From IMG/VR virus record IMGVR_UViG_3300042564_004833, positions 1-27,846 of that record: a stretch of DNA of 27,846 nt; one strand, 5' to 3'. How positions within the stretch are numbered: the stretch's first letter is position 1; every line of letters begins with the position of its first letter. Under the pieces are notes generated by a model. The model was given only the letters and a program-made list of their open reading frames with translations. It ran no database searches and was not told where the DNA came from. The DNA comes from a virus. This document shows positions 2,677-27,846 of the stretch, piece by piece. The position numbers and the translations under genes are program-made.

Positions 2677-3015
2677 TTAGTCTTTAATTCTTTTTACTCT
2701 TGTGTCAATATAGATATCGACAATCTTTTTTCTAAAATCCCAATCAGGTGTCCAATAAGGACAGATAACTATGTGTCCACCTGTCATTTGCATAACCTCA
2801 TCTGAGATATGCTCATCAAACCATGACTTAATGTTTGCCGCTCTAGAATTAGAATTGAGGTGTACTATTAACTTAGGTTTCCCATCATACTCACTCACCT
2901 CAATTGATGTAACCTCATCAAAAAAATCATATATCATTTGTTTAACCAAATTAACTTCTTTGTTTTGATTTTCCTCAACAAGAACCTTTTTTATATGTTG
3001 TCTAAGTAGATTCAC
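2677..3015 (-). CDS. Leader-tagged hypothetical protein
   Basis: A 112-residue protein starting at GTG 3015, two bases after the TAG of the upstream gene. The GTG start is chosen because it gives the full leader MNLLRQHIKKVLVEE, which ends in L-V-E as in the other tagged proteins. The rest is a compact alpha/beta protein (beta strand at about 45-51, helix around 60-75, then a C-V-I-C-P-Y-W-T-P-like hydrophobic stretch near 82-90) that I do not recognise. No enzyme motif is seen. It probably shares a transcript with the long upstream gene. Packaging in the capsid with removal of the leader is the inferred fate. Confidence 0.75.
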   Translation of the reverse strand: MNLLRQHIKKVLVEENQNKEVNLVKQMIYDFFDEVTSIEVSEYDGKPKLIVHLNSNSRAANIKSWFDEHISDEVMQMTGGHIVICPYWTPDWDFRKKIVDIYIDTRVKRIKD

Positions 3016-9127: not shown

Positions 9128-9217
9128 TTATTTCTTAAACCACTCTTGGTATTCCCTCCTATCTTTTATGATTGTAGGAATGATAAATGACATTACAAAT
9201 AACCAAAGGTAAATCAT
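9128..9217 (-). CDS. 29-residue single-membrane-segment peptide
   Basis: This ORF begins at ATG 9217-9215, overlapping the TGA of the T9SS gene as ATGA, and ends TAA four bases before a strong terminator. Residues 1-17 (MIYLWLFVMSFIIPTII) form one hydrophobic membrane segment with an internal proline, followed by a charged tail KDRREYQEWFKK. Overlap, membrane character and terminator position together make it a likely real gene. The function is unknown. The predicted topology is N-out/C-in from the positive tail. A chance ORF of this size cannot be ruled out. Confidence 0.55.
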   Translation of the reverse strand: MIYLWLFVMSFIIPTIIKDRREYQEWFKK

Positions 9218-10779
9218 TTTCTAATTACTAACTTTTTAGTTTTAACTTTGTTGACTCTGATGTAGTAAACACCATTCTCTAAGTTACGTAAGTCAATTTC
9301 ATTATCATTAACAGAATCAATTACTCTACCACTTTGATCAATCAACTCTATATATGATTTCTTACTAACATAAACTACCTCACTTGCTGGATTAGGATAG
9401 ATTCTAAAGTCATTTGAATTTTCATTAACCGAAGCTAAATCTCCGAATATTTCAGTTGGGAAACTTGATCCTACAGCCGCTGTTGATCCTTCTTGTAATC
9501 TATAATCAGGTGTCAAACCAAATGGTACAAATGGTGTTACCCAATTGATATTAGAGTGTGTTGAAATTGAGTCGTTAGCGTGTTGTGAGAAGTATGTCGA
9601 TAGAATGCCAGGTGTTGTTGTAATACAAACAGTACCAGTATTAAAGTTAGAAAGAATGTTACTGTGGAAATACATTGTGTCCCCTAAAATATTATCTTCT
9701 ACAGGTAGACCTTCAATGGATAATCCTTTTTCCCATCCAGTAACAATAGTATTGAAAACAGAAGTTGCGGTATTTCTTCTTAATCTGAAAGCCTTTTCAA
9801 ATTTTTCACCAATTGGTAGGGAAACCGTCCCGTCGCCTTTAGCGCCAATTATAGTGAAGTTAGAAAAAATAGGTGCTGTCAATGGTTGAGCCACACTACC
9901 CTGTGCGTCATTATCCGATTCGAAACAATTTGAGTCGCCAGCAGCGTCTGAAAAATTTTCATTTCTAATCGCTAAACCAAATTGAACCTTTCCTCTGTAT
10001 CCAAAGTCAGTATCAAAGTCATCATCAACTGATGAATAAGCAATTAAGTGTTTACAGTTCACAGTTCCTCCGAACCATTCAAAAGAGTCGTCACCACAGT
10101 GACTTACTTGTACGTAGTCAACTAACGTTTGATTACCTACCGAACCAAAAGTAAGTCCATTGATTTCTTTGTTTGGTTCAAGTGCAATACCTGCAAACTC
10201 AATACGTACAAATCTAATCACACCTGAGTCATCATTATCATTTGTTCCTCCGTGTTGTGTGAAATTTGTTGGTGCAAGTCCTTCAATATTTGCCACACCA
10301 CCAGGTTGGTTGTTAATTGCATTACCCAAAATAATAACTCCACCCCAATCACCTTCAACTCTTTGTGCAATTGGATTGTTAGATGTAAAAACGATTGGGT
10401 TAAATTGTTCACCATCTGCAACAAGTTTAGATCCTCTTGTAACAATTAAAGTTCCTTGCGTTGCGTAATCACCTCTGATGATTGTTCCTGGTAAAATAGT
10501 AAGAGTTGCTCCGTTTTTAACGTAAACCTTGTTTTGGAGTTTGATTACTCCTGACCAAGTTGTATTTGTTGTAATGTCTGAATTTGCGGTTGTTTGTGTT
10601 GCCGGGTAAACCGTATTTTGTGGGTCCCAATTAGACCAACCATAAGTCCAATCTGTTGATGGTGAGTTATCCGTTACAGGAAAAGCACCTCTATAATCTG
10701 TTGGTGTCCAAAATTGGTTTTGAGAGAAAGACGTGATTGTCATCAAAACCGAGAAAATTGTTAAATAAATTTGTTTCAT
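9214..10779 (-). CDS. Secreted beta-helix protein with T9SS type A sorting domain
   Basis: A 521-residue protein with a signal peptide (MKQIYLTIFSVLMTITSFSQ). Start 10779 is chosen because it begins the signal peptide; an in-frame ATG at 10809 would add ten charged residues before it. The body has repeated hydrophobic strands typical of a right-handed parallel beta-helix, with conserved blocks such as G-D-W-G-G-V-I-I-L-G, R-F-V-R-I-E-F-A-G and D-D-S-F-E-W-F-G-G-T that I know from Bacteroidota surface proteins. The last about 75 residues are a T9SS C-terminal domain: F-R-I-Y-P-N-P-A-S, then I-D-Q-S-G-R-V, L-x-N-G-V-Y-Y-I-R-V and the K-K-L-V-I-R-K end. This would send it through the host's type IX system to the cell surface. 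No capsid leader or late element is present. Confidence 0.9.
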   Translation of the reverse strand: MKQIYLTIFSVLMTITSFSQNQFWTPTDYRGAFPVTDNSPSTDWTYGWSNWDPQNTVYPATQTTANSDITTNTTWSGVIKLQNKVYVKNGATLTILPGTIIRGDYATQGTLIVTRGSKLVADGEQFNPIVFTSNNPIAQRVEGDWGGVIILGNAINNQPGGVANIEGLAPTNFTQHGGTNDNDDSGVIRFVRIEFAGIALEPNKEINGLTFGSVGNQTLVDYVQVSHCGDDSFEWFGGTVNCKHLIAYSSVDDDFDTDFGYRGKVQFGLAIRNENFSDAAGDSNCFESDNDAQGSVAQPLTAPIFSNFTIIGAKGDGTVSLPIGEKFEKAFRLRRNTATSVFNTIVTGWEKGLSIEGLPVEDNILGDTMYFHSNILSNFNTGTVCITTTPGILSTYFSQHANDSISTHSNINWVTPFVPFGLTPDYRLQEGSTAAVGSSFPTEIFGDLASVNENSNDFRIYPNPASEVVYVSKKSYIELIDQSGRVIDSVNDNEIDLRNLENGVYYIRVNKVKTKKLVIRK

Positions 10780-10871
10780 TCTTTTAATTTTAAATTTTAT
10801 TTCTACCAATAGATAGTGGTAAAAAATTTAAAATCACATTAAAAAAAGAACCTTAACAAAATGGTAAACGA

Positions 10872-10889: not shown

Positions 10890-11555
10890 TTACCGTATAA
10901 ATTTGGTATCGTAGTAAGTTGCAACATAGTCAGCATTTAAAAGTGGGTATTGTGCAATCACTCGATCAACATCTTCATAATATTCTTCAGTTTCGTAATA
11001 TGGTTCCGCATAATGAGCTAAGAAATCATCAATATATGTATTTATTGCCTCATTAACATCAACATTTTCACCATTTTTTGTAGCCGATATTGGGACAACG
11101 GTATTGTCAATATAATACGACTCTGCATCATAATGTCTGGTTTTTAACCCAATAGATTCTATTTGAATAATCCATCGTTTGTGCCCAACAAACGGAGTTC
11201 CTGTTGTGAATTTGAGTTCTCTAACTGCATCAAAAACTTTTTGTATTTGATTTTTTACCTTTTCGTTAAGATAAAATTTTGGTTGTTCGTCCCATAATAT
11301 TTTAGTGTCTAATTTAATACCAACATAATCTTCAAACTCCATTAATATATCTAAAAGTTCGTCATCCACTATTGCCCAATAATAAGAAACATCATTTGGA
11401 TTTTCTATTTTAAATCCAATAGGATAAGAAGGTTTGAAGTGTTTACTAACAATTTTTTCCCCGACTATAACAGGAGTACATTTTAACCCATGAAGATCTA
11501 TAACACCCCCAACAAACTTTTTGAAGAGTTTTAATGTTGTTTCATTATCCATCAT
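10890..11555 (-). CDS. Hypothetical protein downstream of lysozyme
   Basis: A 221-residue acidic, aromatic-rich protein that I do not recognise. It starts at ATG 11555, overlapping the lysozyme TGA as ATGA, so it is translationally coupled to it. No signal peptide, membrane segment or enzyme motif is visible. The C-terminal 45 residues are rich in Tyr, Glu and Asp (Y-Y-E-T-E-E-Y-Y-E-D). A helix around residues 95-112 (K-N-Q-I-Q-K-V-F-D-A-V-R-E-L) is the most regular element. Operon position suggests a partner of the lysozyme, such as an inhibitor, chaperone or virion protein, but nothing in the sequence decides this. Confidence 0.7.
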   Translation of the reverse strand: MMDNETTLKLFKKFVGGVIDLHGLKCTPVIVGEKIVSKHFKPSYPIGFKIENPNDVSYYWAIVDDELLDILMEFEDYVGIKLDTKILWDEQPKFYLNEKVKNQIQKVFDAVRELKFTTGTPFVGHKRWIIQIESIGLKTRHYDAESYYIDNTVVPISATKNGENVDVNEAINTYIDDFLAHYAEPYYETEEYYEDVDRVIAQYPLLNADYVATYYDTKFIR

Positions 11556-12463
11556 ACAAACATTTTTGCTTCTTTCTCTCTACGAGATTTTAAACCAGGA
11601 AAGTCATCAAACAATGAGCTAGTTGTTTGTAAGATCAATTCTCTCGCCTCTTCAAAGTCACCTCTTTTAATTGATTGTAAAAATTTCTTTGTTCTGATAT
11701 TTCTTCCCATGTTGTAAGTCATAGAAATTAAAGTGTTATACATTCCTTGAGTAAGGTTTGGTGTGATACCTTGTTTTTCCCAATCATTTAATATTTCGTT
11801 TACAATCTCCTCAGCAATTTTAATATCGTCTCTGAACAATATTTCAGCTTGTTTTGGTGTGATTCTTGTCTTACCTGGTTTAATTTTTTCGTAATTAGGT
11901 AAAAAATCATATCCTTCTCTTTCTCCTTTTTGTATTGCGTGTCCGTAACCAATTGTATACGCACCGTCACCAAGATCATAAGCAATTAATGCAGGTTCTC
12001 CTTTATCTACAATTGATCCTTCTTCCCATCTTAAATGATCTAAAAGTTCTTTTGAAGATTTTCTAATCCTTGGTTGTTCAAGTTTTTTAATCGTTTCTTT
12101 TTCAGTTTCAACTGCAGTTTGTAATTGTGGTTCTAAAAAGTTTTGGATCTGATTTAAAGATACTATCCCTAAGAATGAGTACATAACGTACCTCATAATT
12201 TTTCTTTTTAGATCTTCAGGTAGTTTTTTTATTTTTTCTTTAAGAGTTTCGATGTATTGTTTGACATCTTCTTTTGTTTTAACCCAAATTTTAGAAAGAT
12301 CAATCTCATCTTTCACATTTGTAAAATCCCACTCCATATCAGGTTCTCTTTCTTCATCCTCAGTTAATACTGAAAGTTTAAAAACAACCTCATCCAATAT
12401 TTGTTGGTGGTTGGTATAGGACTTTATTACTTTATATTGATCTTCTCGAATAGATAATTTCAT
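11552..12463 (-). CDS. Leader-tagged GH24 lysozyme (T4 lysozyme-like)
   Basis: A 303-residue protein. Residues 1-9 (MKLSIREDQ) are a short leader containing I-R-E. Residues 20-90 are charged and partly helical; residues about 89-104 (I-M-R-Y-V-M-Y-S-F-L-G-I-V-S-L) are a moderately hydrophobic segment that could be a membrane or signal-anchor element. Residues about 137-303 are the GH24 muramidase domain: R-W-E-E-G with catalytic E148, A-Y-D with D163, Y-T-I-G-Y-G-H with T170, matching Glu11-Asp20-Thr26 of T4 lysozyme. It cleaves the MurNAc-GlcNAc bond. At 303 residues it is nearly twice T4 lysozyme; the extra N-terminal half suggests a virion-carried or membrane-held form rather than a simple holin-released endolysin. 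It follows a TATTTATTA element. Confidence 0.9.
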   Translation of the reverse strand: MKLSIREDQYKVIKSYTNHQQILDEVVFKLSVLTEDEEREPDMEWDFTNVKDEIDLSKIWVKTKEDVKQYIETLKEKIKKLPEDLKRKIMRYVMYSFLGIVSLNQIQNFLEPQLQTAVETEKETIKKLEQPRIRKSSKELLDHLRWEEGSIVDKGEPALIAYDLGDGAYTIGYGHAIQKGEREGYDFLPNYEKIKPGKTRITPKQAEILFRDDIKIAEEIVNEILNDWEKQGITPNLTQGMYNTLISMTYNMGRNIRTKKFLQSIKRGDFEEARELILQTTSSLFDDFPGLKSRREKEAKMFV

Positions 12464-12861: not shown

Positions 12862-13824
12862 TTACCTTCTGCCAAAATTTCTATTAAGATTTTCTAACTT
12901 AGCTTTCTTTAGCGCTGTAGTTAATACTTTACTGGTTTGATGATTTGTAGTTCTATTAACTTGTGTGTAGTCAATAGTTTTTGGTTGTTTAGTTTCATTA
13001 ACAGGTCTTGGTTTGTCACTAAATATTGATTCCAATAACTTATGTTTTTTTTCTTTTAACTCCCTTTCTAAATTAATTTCTTCCGTTTGAGTTTGTATTA
13101 TCGATTGAGACAAAGTGTTTGTTTGGATATCTAAGACCTGGTAATCACCTTTTTTCATTTCATCTAAGATCACACCACCTTTTTTGTTTTTACTAATCTT
13201 AAAGAAATTTGCCCTCATTTGTGACGCATATCCAGTATCTTTTCTTCTTGTTAAACTATTATTGTGTAATCTCCTGTGGAATAAGACTTCAGATGTTAAA
13301 TTTATCTTCCTTTTGAATTTATATATTCTACCCATGAAATCAGAGTCCGCAGCAACTTTCCATCCCTCAAACCCATTCATACTTAAAAATAGATCTTTCT
13401 TAATTCCAAATACACCTTCACCATATAAGGATCCATCATTACTGAAATTCCTTTGCCCTTTGTAGTCCTTGAAGTTGAGGAACTTGGGTTTTACACAATC
13501 ATATTTATCTAAACTATTATCGATCTCATCTATTAGGGTTTCTAACATTATGTCATCAGAATCGAAGAAGAATATTTTATCGTATTTTGCTTGTTCGGCT
13601 AATGTATTCTTAATAATATATGGTCCACCATTTTCAGTAAAATAATAAAAAAAGTAGTTCTTCGGAAATTCTTTAGTTTTAACGTATTCTAAAGTTTTTT
13701 CACAATTATCAATTCCAATCAACACTTCAAACTCATCATCATACTTGTTATTATTAATTGAATTAAATAACTCCTCAAAAAAATCTATTGAGTCAAACGT
13801 AGGTATTATAATTGATAAACTCAT
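12862..13824 (-). CDS. Family 2 glycosyltransferase with C-terminal tail
   Basis: A 320-residue protein. Residues 1-210 are a GT-A fold: M-S-L-S-I-I-I-P-T-F-D-S start, G-I-D-N-C strand, a F-F-F-D-S-D-D metal/nucleotide-sugar site near 90-96, and a W-K-V-A-A-D-S-D acceptor-side motif near 155. It transfers a sugar from a nucleotide donor. Residues 215-320 are a low-complexity polar tail ending L-N-R-N-F-G-R-R, not part of the usual GT2 fold. The next gene's product has a comparable tail ending K-G-R-R. The start overlaps the following-gene order as ATGA with the upstream glycosyltransferase. Possible targets are virion protein, phage DNA or host surface glycan; the sequence does not say which. 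Confidence 0.85.
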   Translation of the reverse strand: MSLSIIIPTFDSIDFFEELFNSINNNKYDDEFEVLIGIDNCEKTLEYVKTKEFPKNYFFYYFTENGGPYIIKNTLAEQAKYDKIFFFDSDDIMLETLIDEIDNSLDKYDCVKPKFLNFKDYKGQRNFSNDGSLYGEGVFGIKKDLFLSMNGFEGWKVAADSDFMGRIYKFKRKINLTSEVLFHRRLHNNSLTRRKDTGYASQMRANFFKISKNKKGGVILDEMKKGDYQVLDIQTNTLSQSIIQTQTEEINLERELKEKKHKLLESIFSDKPRPVNETKQPKTIDYTQVNRTTNHQTSKVLTTALKKAKLENLNRNFGRR

Positions 13825-14762
13825 CTTCTACCTTTAGTCTTATAAAGTTTTTGTAAAACAGAAGCGTTTGTCTTTAAAGAAGAATTACCTCCAAGATTTT
13901 TTGGTTTCACCGCAACATGAGTTGGTGTTTTATTAAAGATTTGATTTACTTTTTCGTAGTTAATCATCTTTTCAGTTTTTTCAATAGTCGATTTAACTAC
14001 TATCGGTTCTTCTTTAGGTTTTTCAGGTTCTATTATAATCTCCTCTTCTTTTTGTAAGTCTATCGTATTAAAATCTAACTTTATTGTTTTATCGTAGATT
14101 GAGTTTGAGACTAATGTTTGTATTCTATCGTTTCTTGAGTGGGTGTCGTAAATAGTTTCCTGTTGATGAGTATAATTGATGTAACCCTTACTATGTTTCG
14201 CACAAATTATATCAATATTAGTTTCTATACAATACTTTCCAACCCATACATCTGCCATGTTTGGGGCTTTAAAATGGTTTAAAGGTATTCTCATTAAATT
14301 TGTGTGGAAACACATAACTCCAGTACCTCCAAATTGTACTTTAATATCATTTTTAACAGTACCTAAACAACTATATCTTTCAGTTGCTGATCGATAATAA
14401 CTCCCAATAGGAAATTTGTTAAAATTTCTACCGTGTAAAGTTATTACTTTTGTATTGTTATATTCCTTACACTTTCCAATCATATATTCAACATAATTTG
14501 GGGGATATATTAAGTCATCGTCAATAGTTAAAAAATATCCGTCCTCACAACTCATTAAACTCATGAACTTAAATGCGTCACCTAATGAATTATCAGTTAA
14601 AAACAGATTTATTTTTGTATCGTATAAAAATAAAGGTATGTTGTTATGATTATCATTAAGTGCAATATTAATAACATCACATTGATTATAAATTGATTTG
14701 ATTGTTTTTTCTAAACTACCAATCCTACCATAAGAAGATACGTTAACAATTACTTTATCCAT
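13821..14762 (-). CDS. GT-A-type glycosyltransferase with C-terminal tail
   Basis: A 313-residue protein. The N-terminal two thirds look like a GT-A/family 2 enzyme: V-I-V-N-V-S-S-Y-G-R at 4-13, L-F-L-T-D-N-S-L-G-D, and the T-I-D-D-D-L-I-Y-P-P metal site around 79-88. An F-G-G-T-G-V-M-C-F strand follows near 144-152 and W-V-G-K-Y-C near 173. Residues about 230-313 are a polar tail with a Glu/Pro/Lys-rich hinge (E-P-E-K-P-K-E-E-P), then M-I-N-Y-E-K-V-N and a K-G-R-R end, echoing the D-Y-T-Q-V-N and G-R-R of the gene downstream. It overlaps its downstream neighbour by four bases. The donor sugar is not predictable. Confidence 0.75.
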   Translation of the reverse strand: MDKVIVNVSSYGRIGSLEKTIKSIYNQCDVINIALNDNHNNIPLFLYDTKINLFLTDNSLGDAFKFMSLMSCEDGYFLTIDDDLIYPPNYVEYMIGKCKEYNNTKVITLHGRNFNKFPIGSYYRSATERYSCLGTVKNDIKVQFGGTGVMCFHTNLMRIPLNHFKAPNMADVWVGKYCIETNIDIICAKHSKGYINYTHQQETIYDTHSRNDRIQTLVSNSIYDKTIKLDFNTIDLQKEEEIIIEPEKPKEEPIVVKSTIEKTEKMINYEKVNQIFNKTPTHVAVKPKNLGGNSSLKTNASVLQKLYKTKGRR

Positions 14763-14764
14763 TC

Positions 14765-15346
14765 TTATTTTAAATGTGTGTTATTTGTTACTCTATTTTC
14801 AATATCACTAAATCCTTCTCTCTGCCAAGCTAAAATTGGTTCACAAATAAAACATTTTCCTAATGGTAAGACATCACTAATCAATACATCTACTTTCCAT
14901 TCCCTTGAGTTGATACCTTCCAATATTGTATCATAAAATTTATCTCTAACGATAAACGCGTGAGTTGTGAAAACTTTTTTAGCCCAATTCAAAGACTCAG
15001 AATATTTTTCAACGTCCCCAACATTCCAACCACCTAAGTAAAGTAAATCCCAATCTTCAGGTAATTCAGTCATCACTTTTACCAATTTATCATTAAAGTC
15101 TTCACAAACCTCAATATCATCTTCTAACACTAAGACCATATCTAAGTTATCATTTTTAACCTGTGTGAATAATCTTCGATGACTATCCCAACATCCCATA
15201 AAACCTTGTTGTTTTACAGAATAATCGGCAAACTCAATTTTTCCATCTGTCGCCTCAAAAATCTCATAGTTAAACGGAAGATTAATTTCATCTAATCTGT
15301 CAGTTCTCCTTTTAAGATTGATAACATAACTTTTAATTTCTTTCAT
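14765..15346 (-). CDS. Family 25 glycosyltransferase (LPS-type)
   Basis: A 193-residue protein with the GT25 signature: Y-V-I-N-L-K-R-R-T-D-R at 7-17, I-F-E-A-T-D-G near 28-34, Q-Q-G-F-M-G-C-W-D-S-H near 46-56, and V-L-V-L-E-D-D-I-E-V near 71-80, followed by W-D-L-L-Y-L-G-G. The family transfers galactose or related sugars to lipopolysaccharide or protein hydroxyl groups. The length is typical of phage GT25 copies and short compared with bacterial LgtB. It overlaps the upstream glycosyltransferase by four bases and is separated by two bases from the next, so the four transferases form one transcript. Confidence 0.88.
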   Translation of the reverse strand: MKEIKSYVINLKRRTDRLDEINLPFNYEIFEATDGKIEFADYSVKQQGFMGCWDSHRRLFTQVKNDNLDMVLVLEDDIEVCEDFNDKLVKVMTELPEDWDLLYLGGWNVGDVEKYSESLNWAKKVFTTHAFIVRDKFYDTILEGINSREWKVDVLISDVLPLGKCFICEPILAWQREGFSDIENRVTNNTHLK

Positions 15347-16041
15347 ATCGTAATAATGGGTTTATTTTTTCTTTCCTCAAAGTTCATCTTTGATTCGTGA
15401 TCACCATGTATAACGAGTGATGTTTTGGTATGATACATGGATTTATTTTTATTATGAAGCTTTGTCGATATTTGTTGTCCAACACCAGAACTTAGATTGG
15501 GGTCGTGATTCCATCTACTCATAGGTATTTCATCAATTTTAAAATCTAACTGACTAAAGAATTCTTTTGTTGATATATAACATAGGTCATTCCACTGAGT
15601 TTTAATATGATCACCCATGTCTATAGAATTAAAACTAGTCCAATTGTGTCTATAAACTCTACCATCAGTTAAAATACTTAAACATATTTTATTTGGGTCA
15701 GGGATTTTATCATATCGATTAGCCGCAACACTTAAAAAATTATCAATCAACTGAACATCATCAGGGATTTGAATGAAGTATTTTGAATTAATGTTTCTGA
15801 CGTACCCAAATATGGTATTTATGATTTTCCAATACTTTTTCTTACCTTGATTTGGAAAAAATTTGACATACTTAATGTGTGGACTATTAAAGTTGTAGTT
15901 CTGAACGCTACCGTCATCGAACACAACGATTAAAACTTTTTGATTTCCTTTTTGTCTTTCGATTTGATTTATTAAATCATACAACATATCCCCTCTGTTA
16001 TAAGTTGTAATTAAAATGCAAAAATCATAATTTGAGTCCAT
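15343..16041 (-). CDS. Family 2 glycosyltransferase
   Basis: A 232-residue GT-A protein and first gene of the glycosyltransferase operon. Visible blocks are C-I-L-I-T-T-Y-N-R-G-D at 8-18, V-V-F-D-D-G-S near 39-45, K-Y-F-I-Q-I-P-D-D-V near 87-96 (the DxD-equivalent), and a C-terminal V-I-H-G-D-H-E-S-K-M motif near 209-218. It lacks the long polar tail of the two downstream transferases. The region before its start holds an ATTTTATTTAAATA stretch that is only loosely like the late element, so its promoter is uncertain. Confidence 0.82.
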   Translation of the reverse strand: MDSNYDFCILITTYNRGDMLYDLINQIERQKGNQKVLIVVFDDGSVQNYNFNSPHIKYVKFFPNQGKKKYWKIINTIFGYVRNINSKYFIQIPDDVQLIDNFLSVAANRYDKIPDPNKICLSILTDGRVYRHNWTSFNSIDMGDHIKTQWNDLCYISTKEFFSQLDFKIDEIPMSRWNHDPNLSSGVGQQISTKLHNKNKSMYHTKTSLVIHGDHESKMNFEERKNKPIITI

Positions 16042-16085: not shown

Positions 16086-16400
16086 CTATTTGTTTTTCTT
16101 TTTTTTACCCTGACAGTGTGCTCTCTGACTAAATCCTTTTGGGTTATTACAATTTATTGATTTTTTGTATTTTTCAGTCCATTTCTCATCAAGAGGTTCT
16201 TTCTCTAACTTGTTCTTCCAAAACTTAAATAAGTTTTCTTTATCGTATTCTTGTTTCTTGGAGTCCCACCCACAGTCATGACACAAATAAGGGTGTCTAT
16301 CATCTTTTTCCATTTTCCATGAGTGTTCGCACTTTTCACATTCAATCTTATTATTGAATACTCTGTCGGCTTGTTTTTCTGTTAATACTATTTTCATCAT
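16086..16400 (-). CDS. Leader-tagged zinc-ribbon protein
   Basis: A 104-residue protein started at ATG 16400, which overlaps the upstream TGA as ATGA; a TTG two codons earlier was rejected and the ATG at 16397 is an equal alternative. The N-terminus (MKIVLTEKQ) is a leader of the MKI-x-(L/I)TE-x-Q class shared with the next gene. Residues about 21-50 hold C-x-x-C and C-x-x-C pairs (C-E-K-C, C-H-D-C-G-W) forming a zinc ribbon. The C-terminus contains I-N-C-N-N-P-K-G-F-S-Q then A-H-C and a run of lysines; I recall similar ends in phage proteins. Nucleic-acid binding inside the virion is a reasonable inference. Confidence 0.8.
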   Translation of the reverse strand: MMKIVLTEKQADRVFNNKIECEKCEHSWKMEKDDRHPYLCHDCGWDSKKQEYDKENLFKFWKNKLEKEPLDEKWTEKYKKSINCNNPKGFSQRAHCQGKKKKNK

Positions 16401-16711
16401 TCGCAATCTGAATCATTGTATAATTCCACCAAATAATCGTAGAATTTTTTATTTAAATATTCTTCAACTTCGTCTCTGACATCAACCATTTCTTCTGATG
16501 GTTCTTCATAATCATAATGTTCCTCATCATTATAATAGAAATGAAGACCCTCATTAATACAGAAGTCGGCATAATCATCTTCGTCTTCAAAGTCGCATGG
16601 GTCTTGGATCTCGGTTTGATATTCGATTATTTCACTAATTTTTTCAAGTTCAACTGCTCGTCTTTTGAGTCTTAAACTCATCATTTGTTCTTCGGTTATT
16701 ATTATTTTCAT
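16397..16711 (-). CDS. Leader-tagged acidic hypothetical protein
   Basis: A 104-residue protein opening with MKIIITEEQMMSLRLKRR, a leader with I-T-E followed by a basic patch, and then a strongly acidic, Asp/Glu/Tyr-rich body (for example D-F-E-D-E-D-D-Y-A-D-F at about 40-50). A C-terminal helix includes E-E-Y-L-N-K-K-F-Y-D-Y-L. It overlaps both neighbours by four bases (ATGA at each end). The acidic body may mimic DNA or bind basic partners; no family is recognised. Confidence 0.75.
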   Translation of the reverse strand: MKIIITEEQMMSLRLKRRAVELEKISEIIEYQTEIQDPCDFEDEDDYADFCINEGLHFYYNDEEHYDYEEPSEEMVDVRDEVEEYLNKKFYDYLVELYNDSDCE

Positions 16712-19753: not shown

Positions 19754-20578
19754 GTGAAAATTCCAGAAAACAAACTAAAGGTTTTTACCAAACAAATATA
19801 TAATCATATCATCGATGAATATGGTCAGGATAGAAATTTAACCCCACAAGATGTTCATAACATGATTACGAATTACAATGATGAAATTCTTAAATTATTA
19901 ACTAGTAGAATGGATCCCGACACAAAAAGGGCCGTATCTTTCATGGTATCTCTTTATTCTGAGAACAAAAATCTTGATGAGATTGTTAAGTATGTGTTAG
20001 ACAATTACACTTATTTGGAGGTGACTCATTACGACAATTTTGATCATAAAACCATTGAATGTTCTGAATGTAGGGGTAAAGGTAATGAAGATTGTGATAG
20101 ATGTGATGGGAGCGGTAATGAAGATTGTGATAGATGTGATGGTTCGGGAAGTATTAACTGTACCGATTGTAATGGATCAGGTGAAGACTCAGAAGGTGAA
20201 TCATGTTATACCTGTAATGGAGATGGTGAAATATTTTGTCCTGATTGTGATGGAGCCGGTTCACTACCATGTGATAGTTGTGATGGAGATGGTTCATTAG
20301 ATTGTAACTATTGTGATGGAGATGGTGAAATAGAGTCAAGTGATAAATTTTTTGATAAATCTACTGGTATTGTTGCAACCATATCACCTGATGTTCGTAA
20401 TTTACCTAACGAAACAATATTAACTGATGAGCAAGCAGACACACTATTTAAATCAAAAATAATTGCCCGTATTGATCTTGACGATTTTCAAGTTGATGAA
20501 TACGAACCTATGTCATTTAAAGGTGATGGATCTGGATCAGATATGTGGGTTATCGATTATAAAGAAATCGGTATTTAA
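19754..20578 (+). CDS. Zinc protein with eight DnaJ-type CxxCxGxG repeats, no J domain
   Basis: A 274-residue protein starting at GTG 19754 (the upstream element and the absence of an earlier in-frame ATG support it). Residues 1-100 are helical; H-I-I-D-E at 18-22 contains an I-x-E site but the start is not a clear leader. Residues 103-191 hold eight C-x-x-C-x-G-x-G units (for example CDRCDGSG twice), twice the four in DnaJ, enough for four zinc ions. In DnaJ and similar proteins this module binds unfolded protein. The J domain and C-terminal beta domains are absent. Residues 195-274 form an unrecognised acidic domain. Likely an assembly chaperone or scaffold, by analogy only. Its stop overlaps the stop of the convergent ferritin-like gene by three bases. 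Confidence 0.85.
   Translation: MKIPENKLKVFTKQIYNHIIDEYGQDRNLTPQDVHNMITNYNDEILKLLTSRMDPDTKRAVSFMVSLYSENKNLDEIVKYVLDNYTYLEVTHYDNFDHKTIECSECRGKGNEDCDRCDGSGNEDCDRCDGSGSINCTDCNGSGEDSEGESCYTCNGDGEIFCPDCDGAGSLPCDSCDGDGSLDCNYCDGDGEIESSDKFFDKSTGIVATISPDVRNLPNETILTDEQADTLFKSKIIARIDLDDFQVDEYEPMSFKGDGSGSDMWVIDYKEIGI
20081..20142 (+). repeat. Tandem 33-base repeat in the zinc-repeat gene
   Basis: Bases 20081-20109 and 20114-20142 are identical 29-base copies with a 33-base period, encoding two identical zinc units. A shorter identical 15-base pair recurs at 20279-20293 and 20312-20326 with the same period. This indicates recent expansion of the zinc repeats by duplication. Confidence 0.85.
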
Positions 20579-22306: not shown

Positions 22307-22680
22307 AGTTTTATCCATTTATTGTCGTGGTTATACTTGAAGGATCCGATGTGTTCTCGGTTCCACTCATTTGGTTGGATCAAAGATAAGAAAATATTTC
22401 CATCTGTACCATAGTAAAGGTGATAAATCTTTCCGATCACAGGTTCAAAACTAAACTTGGCCTTGTAAACCAAATCGTTCCATCTGTATTCCTCAATAAG
22501 TTTCTCGTATTCCTTCTTTAGTTCGTCAAACTTATCTTCAAATTGTTGATTGACATGGATTATCCTTGGGCTCTTCCAAAACTGAATATCGTTTACTACG
22601 ATCGCAGGGGCGCCGACATTCGATCCATAGGGTAATAGAGCAGGATTATCAGCGACATTATCGGGTTTCTTATCTTCCAT
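22303..22680 (-). CDS. DUF2452 family protein
   Basis: A 125-residue protein. I start it at ATG 22680 (MEDKKPDNVADN), which is where the family begins; the longer frame from 22737 would add an unrelated 19 residues overlapping the upstream gene. It matches the DUF2452 pattern I know from Flavobacteria: K-P-D-N-V at the start, L-P-Y-G-S-N-V-G-A-P-A-I near 15-26, N-D-L-V-Y-K-A-K-F-S-F-E-P-V-I-G near 73-88, and F-L-S-L-I-Q-P-N-E-W. The function of the family is unknown. Because the family is mainly chromosomal in Bacteroidota, this is a host-type gene carried by the phage. The 11-base overlap with the lipoprotein gene suggests coupling. Confidence 0.82.
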   Translation of the reverse strand: MEDKKPDNVADNPALLPYGSNVGAPAIVVNDIQFWKSPRIIHVNQQFEDKFDELKKEYEKLIEEYRWNDLVYKAKFSFEPVIGKIYHLYYGTDGNIFLSLIQPNEWNREHIGSFKYNHDNKWIKL

Positions 22681-22942
22681 ATTTATGGATTGGGTTTGTG
22701 CAATTACCTTTATGCGAACCCCAAGTGCTTTGTCCATAACCTACTCTAATGTATACACAACCTCCATATGTGAATTCTGTTACATTTTTGTGAAGATCAT
22801 CAGATTTCTGTCTTAACCCTATAGGTTCTTCTATTGTTTGTTGTTTTTGTTGTTGTTCACAAGAGGCTATACCAATTAATATTGTTCCTACACTTGTCCC
22901 CAAGACAAACATAAGGAATACACTATAAAATATTTCTTTCAT
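22670..22942 (-). CDS. Small putative lipoprotein
   Basis: A 90-residue protein. Residues 1-27 are a hydrophobic signal segment ending I-A-S-C, an acceptable lipobox with C28 as the lipidated residue, followed by a Gln-rich linker. The C-terminal domain (residues 48-90) has two further Cys and a Y-G-G-C-V-Y-I-R-V-G then N-C-T-N-P-I-H pattern, which I recall from small phage proteins but cannot name. It would be anchored in a membrane facing the periplasm. It starts 35 bases after the metalloprotease gene; no clear promoter is seen in that gap. Confidence 0.7.
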   Translation of the reverse strand: MKEIFYSVFLMFVLGTSVGTILIGIASCEQQQKQQTIEEPIGLRQKSDDLHKNVTEFTYGGCVYIRVGYGQSTWGSHKGNCTNPIHKYGR

Positions 22943-22977
22943 AAGATAAAAATAAACGACTTACTTCGGTAAATCAA

Positions 22978-23424
22978 TTATTCTTGCCCGAAACTTTGTT
23001 TTTTTGTTGTGGCGTTTTCCACTAACCACTGATCTACATTTGGGACTCTCAATAAAAAATCTAATTCATATGAATAAGCCCAATATTCTTCTTTGTTTGG
23101 GTCCATGTTTCTTCCGTAGATTAACAGGTGATAACTTTCGTGTATAAGAATGGCACATATATTATATATGTTTCCAAAGTTCATCTCTTTAGTTGGGATG
23201 AGAATTGTATGTGGTGGTTCTGTGGTTGCAAATGTATTATTCCAATAACCAATATTGTTACAAACGGTAACTAGGTTATTATATTTTACCGTATCGTATT
23301 TTTGTATTGTGTCTAAAGCTTGTTGAACCTTACTTTTCCAACCATACCCAACATCAGTAATATTAATTTGAGATATAGAAGATGACCAAAACATTAACGA
23401 TATCAAAAGTTGCCATATTTTCAT
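22978..23424 (-). CDS. Secreted putative zinc metalloprotease (HExxH)
   Basis: A 148-residue protein with a signal peptide (MKIWQLLISLMFWSSSISQ). H95-E96-S-Y-H99 is a zinc-protease motif set in a hydrophobic helix (A-I-L-I-H-E-S-Y-H-L-L-I-Y), with E113 about 13 residues on as a possible third ligand. The fold is short, like minimal gluzincins. It is predicted to act in the periplasm or outside. Alternatively it is a non-catalytic HExxH protein, since the motif alone can occur by chance. The start overlaps the stop of the preceding gene as ATGA (four bases), so it belongs to the secreted-protein operon. Confidence 0.72.
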   Translation of the reverse strand: MKIWQLLISLMFWSSSISQINITDVGYGWKSKVQQALDTIQKYDTVKYNNLVTVCNNIGYWNNTFATTEPPHTILIPTKEMNFGNIYNICAILIHESYHLLIYGRNMDPNKEEYWAYSYELDFLLRVPNVDQWLVENATTKKQSFGQE

Positions 23425-23873
23425 ATTTTGATAATTGCTTCGTGTATGGCTTTCTTTAATGCCGACGATACCGTCATCTTTTCAAACGGCATCATTCCTT
23501 CTCTTACTTCGATCATCATCGCTCTTACCTCTGTTGATGACTCACCAATTCCTTCATAACACTTTCCATCATAATGTATTCTAACACCAACTTGAGTTAC
23601 GGATTCTGTTTTCTCAACACCTACAACTCTGATCGTTGTCTTTGGGAGTCCAAAGTAAAACACCTCAACATCCATGTCTTTCCCATCATCAGACAGACAG
23701 AACTTTTCAGATAATTCTTCTTCAACAATTTGTTTAATACCAAATCTGATATCTCTGTTTCCAAGTTCTCTTAACTTTGCCGTGTTGTATACAGAATCAA
23801 CATAAACACACTGTTGAGACATTGCGAGGTTACCAAGTAGTAACATACCAAGTAGTAAGATTATATTTCTCAT
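23421..23873 (-). CDS. Secreted protein, possibly CsgG/LpoB-like
   Basis: A 150-residue protein with a signal peptide (MRNIILLLGMLLLGNLAMSQ) and three further Cys residues. After the signal, residues 38-150 show the order strand, helix, strand typical of small periplasmic domains; G-I-G-E-S-S-T-E-V-R-A-M-M and the final helix A-L-K-K-A-I-H-E-A-I-I resemble the end of the CsgG-like protein at 27154. The resemblance is weak and by eye only. It overlaps both neighbours by four bases (ATGA), so it is translated with the nuclease before it and the metalloprotease after it. Confidence 0.65.
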   Translation of the reverse strand: MRNIILLLGMLLLGNLAMSQQCVYVDSVYNTAKLRELGNRDIRFGIKQIVEEELSEKFCLSDDGKDMDVEVFYFGLPKTTIRVVGVEKTESVTQVGVRIHYDGKCYEGIGESSTEVRAMMIEVREGMMPFEKMTVSSALKKAIHEAIIKI

Positions 23874-24454
23874 TTTATTTTATATTTTGTAAAGTCAGTT
23901 GATAGTGGTTTCTCATTCTTGAAGTAATACTTCTCTACGGTTTTTCCGTATTTGATTGTTTTATAGTACCCATCAGGTACAACGGCACCTGTAGGTAAAA
24001 CTACCGATTTCGGTGTAAATACACAACGGATCTCTACGGTAACAGGTTGAGTCTTTGCCAGTTCTCTTTCACGAACCTCCAACAATCTCCAAGTGGTTCT
24101 ATTTAAGTTTTCTTGTTGTAACGAACAATTAAGATATGTGAATGTTTTAAATAACATATCACGATCACAATTAAAATCAGCAGCAGGAGCCAAGTGACCT
24201 TTGTCATATGGGTTGTTCTCATAGTCTTTGTTGTCTGATGTTAAGATTGAATCGCAAGTATAAAAGTCCATACCTTTTCTATTGGCAGTTCCATTAGGAC
24301 AAGGTACCGAATAACGAATAAACTTTGGTTGTTGTAATTTTTCAGAGTAGACAATCTCGAACATATTTGTTTTAATGTAGATTGAATCTCTTAATGTTTT
24401 CTGACCGAAAACGAATAATGGAAATAAAAATAAAAATAATAACTTAATTCGCAT
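23870..24454 (-). CDS. Secreted DNA/RNA non-specific endonuclease (NUC1)
   Basis: A 194-residue protein with a signal peptide (MRIKLLFLFLFPLFVFG). It has the NUC1/Serratia-nuclease core: Y-D-K-G-H-L-A-P-A-A-D with catalytic H87, F-T-Y-L-N-C-S-L-Q-Q near 105-114, and N-L-N-R-T-T-W-R-L-L-E with metal-binding N118 and E126. The enzyme cuts DNA and RNA without sequence preference, using Mg, outside the cytoplasm. It may degrade extracellular or host DNA, recycle nucleotides, or exclude competitor phage DNA. The start overlaps the GEVED gene by 11 bases. No immunity protein is evident next to it. Confidence 0.9.
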   Translation of the reverse strand: MRIKLLFLFLFPLFVFGQKTLRDSIYIKTNMFEIVYSEKLQQPKFIRYSVPCPNGTANRKGMDFYTCDSILTSDNKDYENNPYDKGHLAPAADFNCDRDMLFKTFTYLNCSLQQENLNRTTWRLLEVRERELAKTQPVTVEIRCVFTPKSVVLPTGAVVPDGYYKTIKYGKTVEKYYFKNEKPLSTDFTKYKIK

Positions 24455-25523
24455 AACCTGTTCTTATTAAATAAATGTTTGATATCCCACTGTTAGTAGG
24501 ACCTTGTATTGTTAATCCCTGAACCCCAGGGTAGGTTGTTCTTAAATCACCATACGATGAATTAATTACATTCCATTGGGTTTGATTAAATAACCGATAT
24601 GTTGGCACACCGACTTCCCAAGGTACGTTATATGTCTTCTGATAAACTTCATAAACATCCGATATAGTGAGGATGTTATTACCATTTGTATTTAATCTGT
24701 AATAGTCTTTGGACTCAAACCCCTGTGTTAAAATCTTTTGGTTGAAGAACTGAGCATCGGTTATCGTAGGGTTAGATACCGCTAAATTATCTACAACGAT
24801 TTGGAAGTTGTATGATGTGGCATTTAAGTTTGTTGTTATACTATACTGACCATTTGCGTTTGTATTGTAAGTTCCGTGTAACGTATAGTTTGTTTCTGTG
24901 GTAAGTTTCTTAAATAATTTTACCGGTACGTTTGGTATACCATTACCTTCGGCACCATAAACAAATCCTGAATGATTGTAAGGATCAATTGCTCCTGTTA
25001 TATTTGTTTTAAAGTCAAATGTATTTCCGTATGCATATGTACCACATAGATTTGGTATATTAGCATAAACCATTACAAATCTAACAAGTACCGGTCCATT
25101 GAATACCGTTGTTGGTACCACAAAGGTTGCCGACTTTGTATGTGTACCTAACCAAGAAAAATTATATTGGTGTACCAATTCACCAGCATCAGTTAAAACT
25201 CCATTACCATTGAAGTCAATCCACATTTTGAAGTACTCCATGTAGTTTCCATTTGTCTGTGCGGTGTACTGAAGTGAGATATTCTGACCCGCAGTAATTG
25301 TTGGTATGAGAGGTCCATTTGTGTAGTTGTAATATCCCGCAGGATTACCTCCCGACGTTGCGGCATAACCATTTGATCCCGCAAATGTTTGTCCATTAAT
25401 AGTTACACTTGATACGTACTCACAACAAAAACTCGTTGGGTAACTCGTACACAACGCCGTCTGAGAATAACTAACATAACTGATGAGAAAGGCTACTGCC
25501 CAACTAATAATCTTGTTCCACAT
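24444..25523 (-). CDS. Secreted GEVED-domain protein
   Basis: A 359-residue protein with a signal peptide (MWNKIISWAVAFLISYVSYS) and a Cys-rich start. Residues about 90-160 fit a GEVED domain: M-E-Y-F-K-M-W-I-D-F-N-G-N-G, D-A-G-E-L-V, then P-V-L-V-R-F-V-M-V-Y. Residues about 185-250 look like a carboxypeptidase-regulatory/SdrD-type beta domain (N-V-P-V-K-L-F, G-Q-Y-S-I-T-T). Residues 275-300 (R-L-N-T-N-G-N-N-I-L-T-I-S-D-V-Y) resemble a dockerin-like calcium loop. There is no T9SS C-terminal domain, so it should stay periplasmic or leave by another route. It overlaps the outer-membrane gene by 31 bases; the start is fixed by the signal peptide. Confidence 0.82.
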   Translation of the reverse strand: MWNKIISWAVAFLISYVSYSQTALCTSYPTSFCCEYVSSVTINGQTFAGSNGYAATSGGNPAGYYNYTNGPLIPTITAGQNISLQYTAQTNGNYMEYFKMWIDFNGNGVLTDAGELVHQYNFSWLGTHTKSATFVVPTTVFNGPVLVRFVMVYANIPNLCGTYAYGNTFDFKTNITGAIDPYNHSGFVYGAEGNGIPNVPVKLFKKLTTETNYTLHGTYNTNANGQYSITTNLNATSYNFQIVVDNLAVSNPTITDAQFFNQKILTQGFESKDYYRLNTNGNNILTISDVYEVYQKTYNVPWEVGVPTYRLFNQTQWNVINSSYGDLRTTYPGVQGLTIQGPTNSGISNIYLIRTGYAN

Positions 25524-27157
25524 GTTACTGTATAATTAAGTGCCCTTTCTTTTATTGCCCAAGCACCTCCGGCATTTATGTTAAATTTAAATCTTTTTGT
25601 TATGTTAATATTTGTACCCAAACTTGGTATTACAACATAAGGCGACTTCAATAATAAGTCATTGTAATAACTGATGTAAGGTGAATAAACAAACAATCCC
25701 ATTATTTTCATATCAATTCTTTTTCCGAATCTCAAATCATACATTCCACCAGCAATAACCGCAGTTCCCAAGAACTCCGTTTTATATACTTGTCCGTATG
25801 ATACCGTTCCCATGTAAATTGCTTTGAGACTTGGTATTTTTGGGAACATTAACATCTGTCCTCCAGCTATCGTTCCGTAAACAGAACCTCTACCTTCAAA
25901 ACCTAACGATAAAGTCCCTGACAATAAAGTCATACTTTTTTTATTGATCCAAGCGTGATACCCTGTTAGGTTTGGTCCTTGTTGCGCTGATACATAATCA
26001 ACTAATCCACCACGAGCAGTTTCCCCGTCCCAACGCATATTATGATATCCACCTGTAAGTTTTAATCCTGTTCTAACTTCTGAGTTTTGAAAGTTGAAAC
26101 CTACAAAGTCACTTGACGCGATTACTGTAGGTTTACCACCTTCCTTATTCTGATTTATTGTTTTTGTTGCTCCCTGTGTGATGTTGGTTTGTCCTCCACC
26201 ACTTTCTTCTGGGGTTGTTGTACCTTCTTGGTTGGGTGGGTTTCCGCTATTATTCCCCACACCAGTGTTCCCATTACTACTCCCACCATTGACATCAGGG
26301 TTAGTTGTACCACCATTTACTTCTTGTTGGTTAGATCCTTCCACATTCCCACTATTCCCAGTGTTACCAGGCTGCCCAACATTGCCACTATTATTAGGGT
26401 TATTATTATTTTCATTTCCGTTTTGATTTTGATTTATAGGCGACTGAGCCTGTTGATTTCCATTTTCATTTGATCCACCTTGAGTTGTAGTTCCTCCTGC
26501 TGGTGTTGGATTTTGAGTTCCACCATTTTGATTAGTGGTTCCATTTCCTCCGTTTGAACTTGTTTCATTTGTTCCAGAAGTGGTTTGACTTCCTTCAGTA
26601 GTGTTACTTGTTCCATTATTTACATTTTGAGTGTTATTGGTCGTGGTATTATTAGTATTTGTTGTTGTGTTATTACTATTATTTGTTGTATTGTTTCCAC
26701 TTCCATTTTGGGATCCCTTCCCATTCTTCTTATTACCGTTGTTGGTATTAGAAGAGTTAGATGCCGCCGCCAATGATCCACTTAAGAAATCAGTTGCCCC
26801 ATTTGATAGATCCATTAGTGATGATAATGAATTCAAAAGTCCAACCGTATTAAGTGTCACATCTTGTGCGATATTAATTTGTCCACCAAGTCCAACTATC
26901 TCTGAACAAGGTGATCCGTCATATTGCGAAAAAACTTGGTTAGCCCAAGTTTCAAAAGTTCCATCGGTAAATTGTTGTTGAGTAAAGTTCTCAACAAAAC
27001 CATAGTACCCCACCGTGACTGAGCCATTGATGGGGACTATAAGGTTTTTTATGTTTCCTGTACAAGGATCTGTGTAAGAATAATTGTAGGTTTGCGCATT
27101 TAGTTTGAAAAAACTAAATAACACAAACACAAATGATATAAGAATCTTTATTCTCAC
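25493..27157 (-). CDS. Outer-membrane protein with Asn/Thr/Gly-rich linker
   Basis: A 554-residue protein with a signal peptide (MRIKILISFVFVLFSFFKLNA). Residues 22-130 are a compact extracytoplasmic domain with two Cys. Residues about 135-335 are a low-complexity linker rich in Asn, Thr, Gly, Ser and Gln with short repeats such as N-N-T-T. Residues about 345-554 show many short alternating amphipathic strands (for example G-S-V-Y-G-T-I-A-G-G, Y-M-G-T-V-S-Y-G-Q-V-Y and V-V-I-P-S-L-G-T-N-I) consistent with an outer-membrane beta-barrel. The first residues overlap the stop of the CsgG-like gene (ATGA). The likely function is surface display or export partner; unknown. Confidence 0.75.
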   Translation of the reverse strand: MRIKILISFVFVLFSFFKLNAQTYNYSYTDPCTGNIKNLIVPINGSVTVGYYGFVENFTQQQFTDGTFETWANQVFSQYDGSPCSEIVGLGGQINIAQDVTLNTVGLLNSLSSLMDLSNGATDFLSGSLAAASNSSNTNNGNKKNGKGSQNGSGNNTTNNSNNTTTNTNNTTTNNTQNVNNGTSNTTEGSQTTSGTNETSSNGGNGTTNQNGGTQNPTPAGGTTTQGGSNENGNQQAQSPINQNQNGNENNNNPNNSGNVGQPGNTGNSGNVEGSNQQEVNGGTTNPDVNGGSSNGNTGVGNNSGNPPNQEGTTTPEESGGGQTNITQGATKTINQNKEGGKPTVIASSDFVGFNFQNSEVRTGLKLTGGYHNMRWDGETARGGLVDYVSAQQGPNLTGYHAWINKKSMTLLSGTLSLGFEGRGSVYGTIAGGQMLMFPKIPSLKAIYMGTVSYGQVYKTEFLGTAVIAGGMYDLRFGKRIDMKIMGLFVYSPYISYYNDLLLKSPYVVIPSLGTNINITKRFKFNINAGGAWAIKERALNYTVTCGTRLLVGQ

Positions 27158-27846
27158 TTTGGAAATACTCCTTTAGTTATTAATCTTGAAACAACTCTTG
27201 AAGATGCTGTCTCTAAGGCTTTCTTTGTAGAAATACCTATGGTTGATTGATTGAATTTTACCTCATCGGATATGTCTCCTAATATAGATGAGGTTTTGAT
27301 TGTAACTGCTTCACCAAGTCCTGATCCTACGATCACTTGACTTGTTTCAGCATCAACAAATTTGATCTGTAGACCCAATCTTGTTGTTTGATTTACGGTT
27401 TGTTGTCCGTTGACTTTTACTATTTCATCTTCAGATACACTAAAGTCGTATACCTCAATATAAACAAAGTACTTAGCCAATACAACATTACCTTTCACAT
27501 CGATTTTGTTTGAAGATATCCCTTTGTCTGATGCCTTGTCTTGTGCAATCATTCTTTGTTTGATATCTTCCTTTTCTTCTGTGAAAATAAATCTATTGGT
27601 GTACTCCAAATATTCAATAACAATATTGGTTACACCAAGACCTACTCTTTTGTCTTTTAACTCAGGGTACATTTCATATAGTTCCTCGTTGATACCAATT
27701 TTTAATAATTGGATCGGAACCTGAATTGTCCCATCGTAATCCGCTACTACATCTATCGATTGTTTCTTCTCAAACTCAGCCTGATATTGTTCTGTCTTTA
27801 CAGTACCAATACCCCCTCCGTTTTGAGGGGGCTGGGCTTGTACTGT
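27154..27846 (-). CDS. CsgG-like outer-membrane secretion protein (5' end outside window)
   Basis: The frame is open to the window edge, so the start lies to the right; 230 residues are visible. The pattern fits the CsgG/curli-secretion fold: K-R-V-G-L-G-V-T-N-I-V-I-E-Y near the middle, V-L-A-K-Y-F-V-Y-I-E-V-Y-D-F-S, L-G-L-Q-I-K-F-V-D-A-E-T-S-Q-V-I-V-G-S-G-L-G-E with the G-x-G-E end typical of that group, and a final helix A-L-E-T-A-S-S-R-V-V-S-R-L-I. CsgG forms a nonameric pore in the outer membrane. The first visible residues are Pro/Gly/Gln-rich. The assignment is by pattern only; a related LpoB-like fold is possible. Confidence 0.7.
   Translation of the reverse strand, partial: TVQAQPPQNGGGIGTVKTEQYQAEFEKKQSIDVVADYDGTIQVPIQLLKIGINEELYEMYPELKDKRVGLGVTNIVIEYLEYTNRFIFTEEKEDIKQRMIAQDKASDKGISSNKIDVKGNVVLAKYFVYIEVYDFSVSEDEIVKVNGQQTVNQTTRLGLQIKFVDAETSQVIVGSGLGEAVTIKTSSILGDISDEVKFNQSTIGISTKKALETASSRVVSRLITKGVFPK

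Follow-up and report, generated by a model that had tools for sequence, protein, structure and literature searches.

Introduction

Among described systems, curli (type VIII secretion; CsgG with CsgE/CsgF and CsgA/CsgB), the Fap system of Pseudomonas, Pel export and the cellulosome each resemble a part of the gene block examined here. This block lies at one end of the IMG/VR virus record IMGVR_UViG_3300042564_004833 (the window: the complete record, 27,846 bases), and it belongs, as the 3' part, to an operon of exported proteins that is conserved in T4-like phages of Bacteroidota with the type IX secretion system (T9SS). FapF is a 12-strand barrel that follows a helical N-terminal region and a disordered linker, Pel export combines a ring of the lipoprotein PelC with the PelB barrel, and the cellulosome pairs scaffoldin cohesins with dockerin-bearing enzymes.

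The operon shares with curli the CsgG fold of an exported, often lipidated protein and its setting among exported partners, but it differs in having a 12-strand barrel as a separate protein, a cohesin protein with a T9SS tail, and lectins, and in the lack of a Pfam CsgG match; no Pfam family for CsgA, CsgB, CsgE or CsgF was found in the core and accessory operon proteins scanned. The 12 strands, long helix and disordered linker of its outer-membrane protein (OMP) recall Fap, but FapF is one of several barrel matches, NanC, KdgM and autotransporters being others, and no Fap partners were identified. Pel offers an analogy only, that of a CsgG-fold lipoprotein beside a separate outer-membrane barrel, with PelC among the structural matches; unlike Pel, the phage operon is without polysaccharide synthesis genes. 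As in the cellulosome, a cohesin domain is accompanied by dockerin-like modules in partner genes, but the cargo consists of lectins and GEVED proteins instead of plant-polymer enzymes and the setting is a phage-infected Bacteroidota cell.

Single parts are already known from single phage genomes. Tominaga et al. 2020 (PMC7198788) describe curli genes A-G-F in one virus and propose that infected cells attach to their neighbours. That virus too is T4-like, infects Bacteroidetes (it is marine) and has a CsgG annotation; within the text available, the account concerns one genome and mentions no cohesin, T9SS tail, barrel or conservation. Its curli genes are possibly the same operon as the one described here. 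Cryophage (PMC7468147, Nat Commun 2020) likewise encodes T9SS type A sorting domains, carried by variable enzymes and a PA14 protein in one phage and called a unique occurrence; here the domain belongs instead to one conserved scaffold-like protein in a fixed operon. A cohesin/T9SS/CsgG phage module was not described in the literature searched, which left out preprints and most subscription papers.

A conserved phage operon that extends beyond the window

An earlier note on this DNA had described seven consecutive, overlapping or abutting genes, nearly all with exported products. The seven reading frames are all real and lie on the minus strand in the order that it gave (Table 1). The first six overlap, by 4 nt (CsgG-like/OMP, NUC1/small CsgG-like and small CsgG-like/HExxH), 31 nt (OMP/GEVED) or 11 nt (GEVED/NUC1), and the lipoprotein gene stands apart by a 35-nt gap. 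The long Asn/Thr linker reported in the OMP was also recovered (202 residues, with 56 Asn, 38 Gly and 36 Thr). The true start of the operon, however, lies upstream of the window edge. In the two closest complete relatives (L003 and L004, whose CsgG-like protein is 97% identical to that of the window), the operon reaches further upstream, with a holin-like gene of two transmembrane segments, the gene of a small protein termed c3 and the gene of a protein of about 635 aa termed COH. The c3 gene of L003 is masked by an antisense call, and it is called in L004 and most other loci; the holin-like gene is often part of the upstream stretch in close relatives. The window record is most likely a genome fragment, its edge cutting the operon. 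The closest complete relatives of its truncated CsgG-like protein begin with a lipobox (MKNLLYILPFFLIGC).

Table 1. Operon genes and one internal feature present in the window.
Feature	Position	Strand	Remarks
CsgG-like outer-membrane (lipo)protein	27154..27846	-	230 aa visible; 5' end cut at contig edge
OMP	25493..27157	-	554 aa; signal peptide, small N-terminal domain, long helix, disordered linker, predicted C-terminal 12-strand beta-barrel
Asn/Gly/Thr-rich OMP linker	26150..26755	-	about residues 135-336
GEVED-domain member of the LEC family	24444..25523	-	359 aa; Ig-like plus dockerin-like C-terminal module
NUC1, exported DNA/RNA non-specific endonuclease	23870..24454	-	accessory
Small exported protein related to the CsgG-like protein	23421..23873	-	core
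Exported HExxH protein, putative metallopeptidase	22978..23424	-	accessory
Small putative lipoprotein	22670..22942	-	transmembrane/lipobox-like N-terminus; lineage-specific accessory

A protein scan of IMG/VR yielded 222 relatives of the CsgG-like protein, a profile scan placed its family in at least 586 contigs, and the four records that tblastn turned up all belong to a single cultured species, Flavobacterium phage immuto. The 212 loci that we collected fell into 56 CsgG clusters, and 38 non-redundant loci among them had flanks of 6 kb or more to either side. Retrieval was by the CsgG-like gene, so that its own presence in 38/38 is by construction; that of the other families is not. Each of the 38 loci also contains COH, OMP, the small CsgG-related protein and a member of the lectin/GEVED family, termed LEC, and c3 was called in 34/38. 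The HExxH protein (26 loci) and NUC1 (11 loci) are accessories and the small lipoprotein (2 loci) is a lineage-specific extra, so that the gene set which the earlier note had treated as one unit holds for its other members and not for these three.

Gene order is conserved in many phages, with modest variation. The OMP gene directly follows the CsgG-like gene in 47 clusters, with a holin-like gene in between in 9; LEC comes mostly after OMP, in other loci after the small CsgG-related protein, and immuto-like phages carry LEC before a COH that is split in two genes. Selection on the CsgG-like gene is strongly purifying (dN/dS, the ratio of non-synonymous to synonymous substitution rates, 0.04-0.07 for pairs where it was computable), and LEC is the most divergent operon protein between several lineages; since dS was near saturation for several pairs, only the ranking was used. 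A diversity-generating retroelement was considered as the source of lectin variability and rejected, no reverse transcriptase being present in 20 phage records.

The carriers are large T4-like phages. The T4-type gp23 was found in 17/20 phage records of 98-434 kb, and immuto (MW353175), which infects Flavobacterium (Flavobacterium sp. LMO8), has gp20, a prohead protease and gp23; far-T4 viruses had earlier been tied to marine Bacteroidetes (PMC7198788). Among 84,980 prokaryote genomes the CsgG-like family occurred in one, on a 254-kb contig of a metagenome-assembled genome. This contig itself carries gp23, which makes a binned phage the most likely source of the match. In 294 other genomes of the same class a profile search found no relative, and a host origin was rejected on this ground.

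Signal peptides are near-universal across the operon families

Signal peptides were scored by a heuristic over the non-redundant loci. They were present in CsgG-like (55/55), OMP (52/56), lectin/GEVED (47/51), NUC1 (15/15), small CsgG-like (48/50), HExxH (31/32) and COH (62/63) proteins, compared with 78/904 other genes of the same loci and 0/46 neighbouring endolysins. The signal peptides of the operon are not due to chance, in agreement with the idea that nearly all its products are exported. The CsgG-like protein was scored as a lipoprotein in 30/55 cases. Both the export and the conservation of the operon are well supported, while its purpose is something we infer. Because the block is conserved and consistently exported over hundreds of phage contigs, it very likely matters to the infection cycle.

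A predicted CsgG fold beside a predicted 12-strand barrel

The CsgG-like protein was modelled with AlphaFold2 on a full-length relative 97% identical to the window protein, with 28 sequences in the alignment (pLDDT, the per-residue model confidence, 57.5; pTM, the global score, 0.53). In a Foldseek search of the PDB the top 18 matches were all E. coli CsgG (E 2.6e-9 to 1.8e-6), the best with probability 1.00 at about 13% identity; FlgT, PelC and LptE appeared lower. On this model of moderate confidence, the protein has the CsgG tertiary fold. The fold is apparent from structure comparison only: Pfam CsgG (PF03783) had no match above cut-off in the window or any of 28 relatives, sequence searches in Pfam, PHROGs, NCBIfam and PDB returned no CsgG match, and hhalign against E. 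coli CsgG alone gave a probability of 1%. A BFVD search had as its best match one uncultured-phage CsgG annotation (E 5.7e-7). The model, a single subunit, has three long strands, and the region of the fourth falls below pLDDT 50; compared by hand count with the hairpin segments of E. coli CsgG, the first is of similar length and the second about 7 residues shorter. The small CsgG-related protein matched the CsgG-like profile in hhalign (probability 96.9, E 1.6e-10).

The OMP was modelled with AlphaFold2 via a short-linker relative (L057, 26% identical to the window OMP). In the model (pLDDT 66.1), a small N-terminal domain and a helix of 40 residues are joined by a disordered linker to 12 long strands, with the barrel mostly at pLDDT 70-87; its Foldseek matches were outer-membrane barrels (an OmpC model, FapF, NanC and KdgM). 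The dedicated envelope programme proposed earlier, for which the CsgG fold and gene order in relatives were the points to check, is supported by a predicted structure that matches CsgG, by an order kept in many phages and by the near-universal signal peptides.

Of the accessory proteins, NUC1 matches Pfam Endonuclease_NS (3.8e-19) and keeps the DKGH motif in 13/15 family members, and the HExxH motif is present in 32/32 members of its family, for which there is no Pfam family and no match in the phage database. An exported nuclease raises the idea that the operon serves to destroy competitor DNA, as in the earlier note, or host DNA. NUC1 does carry a signal peptide throughout and mostly an intact motif, but a plain signal peptide would take it to the periplasm without any pore, and because it occurs in so few of the complete loci, nuclease export is unsupported as the purpose and is the least likely of the explanations weighed here.

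A cohesin protein, lectins with dockerin-like loops and a proposed surface display

COH, the first operon gene in close relatives, encodes a cohesin/dockerin protein with a C-terminal T9SS sorting tail. In its alignment the tail was found in 22/22 sequences and the cohesin domain (PF00963) in 20/22, PF00963 being above cut-off for COH of L003 and immuto; the tail family PF18962 was above cut-off in COH of 21/21 records (TIGR04183 5.1e-11). A second cohesin domain is probably present. Judged by its sorting domain and signal peptide, COH is a predicted T9SS type A substrate. The 20 phage records of 98-434 kb each have exactly one T9SS sorting tail, in COH. Outside the operon, the window encodes a T9SS-tail protein at 9214-10809 (minus strand; 531 aa, PF18962 E 1.2e-10) with a signal-peptide-like N-terminus.

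LEC proteins carry C-type lectin (20/30), laminin-G (7/30) or GEVED (4/30) domains, and a T9SS tail was found in 0/30; the window member matches Pfam GEVED at 1.4e-11. The C-terminal module of this protein, which is Ig-like plus dockerin-like, is also found in COH (31% identity, E 4e-15). A dockerin-like calcium loop was found in COH (53/53) and LEC (47/51), against 8/166 other long genes. PHROGs returned nothing for COH, LEC, c3 or the holin-like c7.

Among the purposes listed in the earlier note, a surface structure is favoured, because the product of the first operon gene combines a cohesin domain with a T9SS tail and because the GEVED protein is one of a family of lectins that have dockerin-like loops. 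COH would pass through Sec and then the host T9SS to be anchored on the cell surface. An outer-membrane export assembly would consist of the 12-strand OMP, the CsgG-like protein and the small paralogue of the latter; it could be a pore or else a ring of lipoproteins combined with a barrel, and c3 may tie it to the inner membrane. This assembly would bring out LEC, which bears the dockerin-like module without a T9SS tail, and dockerin-cohesin pairing would fix it on the surface, where a lectin coat could let the cell, whether infected or lysing, adhere to others such as neighbouring hosts.

The operon probably remodels the outer surface of the infected or dying host cell. That it is more specifically a late system which exports and displays lectins on the infected cell via cohesin-dockerin pairing, perhaps for adhesion, is our preferred but tentative reading, somewhat short of an even chance. 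In the full version, the cohesin scaffold would leave by the host T9SS and the dockerin-tagged lectins by a CsgG-fold/barrel exporter of the phage's own, as parts of a self-contained late machine that coats the infected cell so that it sticks to its next victims; this is conceivable but doubtful. Several points weigh against lectin display. Because the CsgG model is of modest confidence and its second hairpin is shortened, pore formation stays a candidate only; Pfam gives only weak dockerin matches, which reach 7e-4 at best and fall short of the cut-off in the member examined; and the passage of LEC through the CsgG/OMP route is one that we infer only.

The exported lectins might instead coat progeny at lysis and aid attachment to the next host, and lectin domains do occur on virions of large phages (PMC7824862). 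Such virion decoration is hardly likely, since signal peptides lead proteins away from virion assembly and the sorting tail of COH is for the host cell surface.

A late-promoter-like motif and a possible relation to lysis

In immuto, the motif [AC]TATTTAT[AT] lies within 80 nt upstream of 21/70 structural-region genes versus 10/142 others (Fisher p 2e-5), a correlation for which the gene classes were set from annotation after the motif had been seen. It occurs 44 times on the plus strand, which holds nearly all genes, and 7 times on the other, and is a candidate late promoter. The motif often stands about 20-35 nt before structural genes and reads as the reverse complement of T4's TATAAATA. 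In the operon loci, which are related by descent so that these counts too are correlative, it was found within 120 nt upstream of COH (22/53), c3 (11/49) and other genes (74/612), and of none of the CsgG-like (0/55), OMP (0/56) or small CsgG-like (0/50) genes. The pattern fits a transcript that begins at COH or close to it and is driven by a late-type promoter. In immuto-like loci (e.g. L168, L171 and L081) the stretch from the motif to the start of COH also holds a short conserved leader that resembles a stem-loop (AGTGCGAAAGCACCTGGTTTTT in L168). Together, the motif and the frequent endolysin neighbours suggest late expression of the operon.

Timing bears on receptor masking or superinfection exclusion, the latter another purpose raised in the earlier note. 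Here the lectins would cover host glycans and so block further phage adsorption or keep progeny from sticking to debris. The lectins vary most while the export genes are conserved, and the T9SS tail implies surface display, both as receptor masking would have it. Exclusion, however, fits poorly because the operon is preceded by a late-promoter-like motif, which suits debris release better than a function that should act early, and we consider masking improbable.

The main rival to lectin display is an outer-membrane lysis stage, in which a holin and a GH19 endolysin would open the inner membrane and wall, c3, the CsgG-like protein and OMP would replace spanins, and the lectins and nuclease would handle debris and DNA. 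A GH19 endolysin lies within 8.5 kb in 28/38 loci and a holin-like c7 or c9 is present in 29/38, in several different arrangements, a linkage that also suits a lysis role; immuto has a separate lysis cluster, in which the GH19 gene comes after c7. The late-promoter-like motif, the high conservation of c3 and the frequent lipoprotein character of the CsgG-like protein also agree with lysis. The immuto holin/endolysin cluster, however, is about 28 kb from the operon. The N-terminal segment of c3 is weakly hydrophobic (median best 19-residue mean 1.29) and its long tail, ending in a conserved W, looks unlike the coiled coil of an i-spanin. A T9SS-anchored cohesin protein and lectins, present in every locus, would be superfluous for lysis. 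We regard this explanation as unlikely, although the display and lysis readings are not mutually exclusive.

If display is true, a virus would use its own export machinery together with that of its host to cover the host cell in lectins held on a scaffold, which would provide a mechanism for infected-cell aggregation in Bacteroidota. If lysis is true, the operon points to the means by which T4-like phages get through the outer membrane of Bacteroidota. The cultured phage immuto on Flavobacterium sp. LMO8 makes both readings directly testable.

Other genes of the window

Unrelated proteins at 2-859, 2677-3015, 3018-4802, 6715-8373, 11552-12463 and 16397-16711 have common short N-termini (MKxxIRxILxE, MKIxITEEQ) that are reminiscent, by analogy, of the capsid-targeting tags of T4-like phages. 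The gene at 19754-20578 lies on the plus strand among minus-strand genes and encodes a Cys-rich protein in which CxxCxGxG units recur (BSD2/DnaJ-type zinc domain). Glycosyltransferase-like genes were recognised by eye at 12862-16041 (minus strand), a dTDP-sugar epimerase is also encoded in the window, and the immuto genome has a long sugar-gene cluster. On the minus strand, a phage lysozyme domain (1.3e-15) is encoded at 11552-12463 and a peptidoglycan-binding domain (1e-9) at 859-1722.

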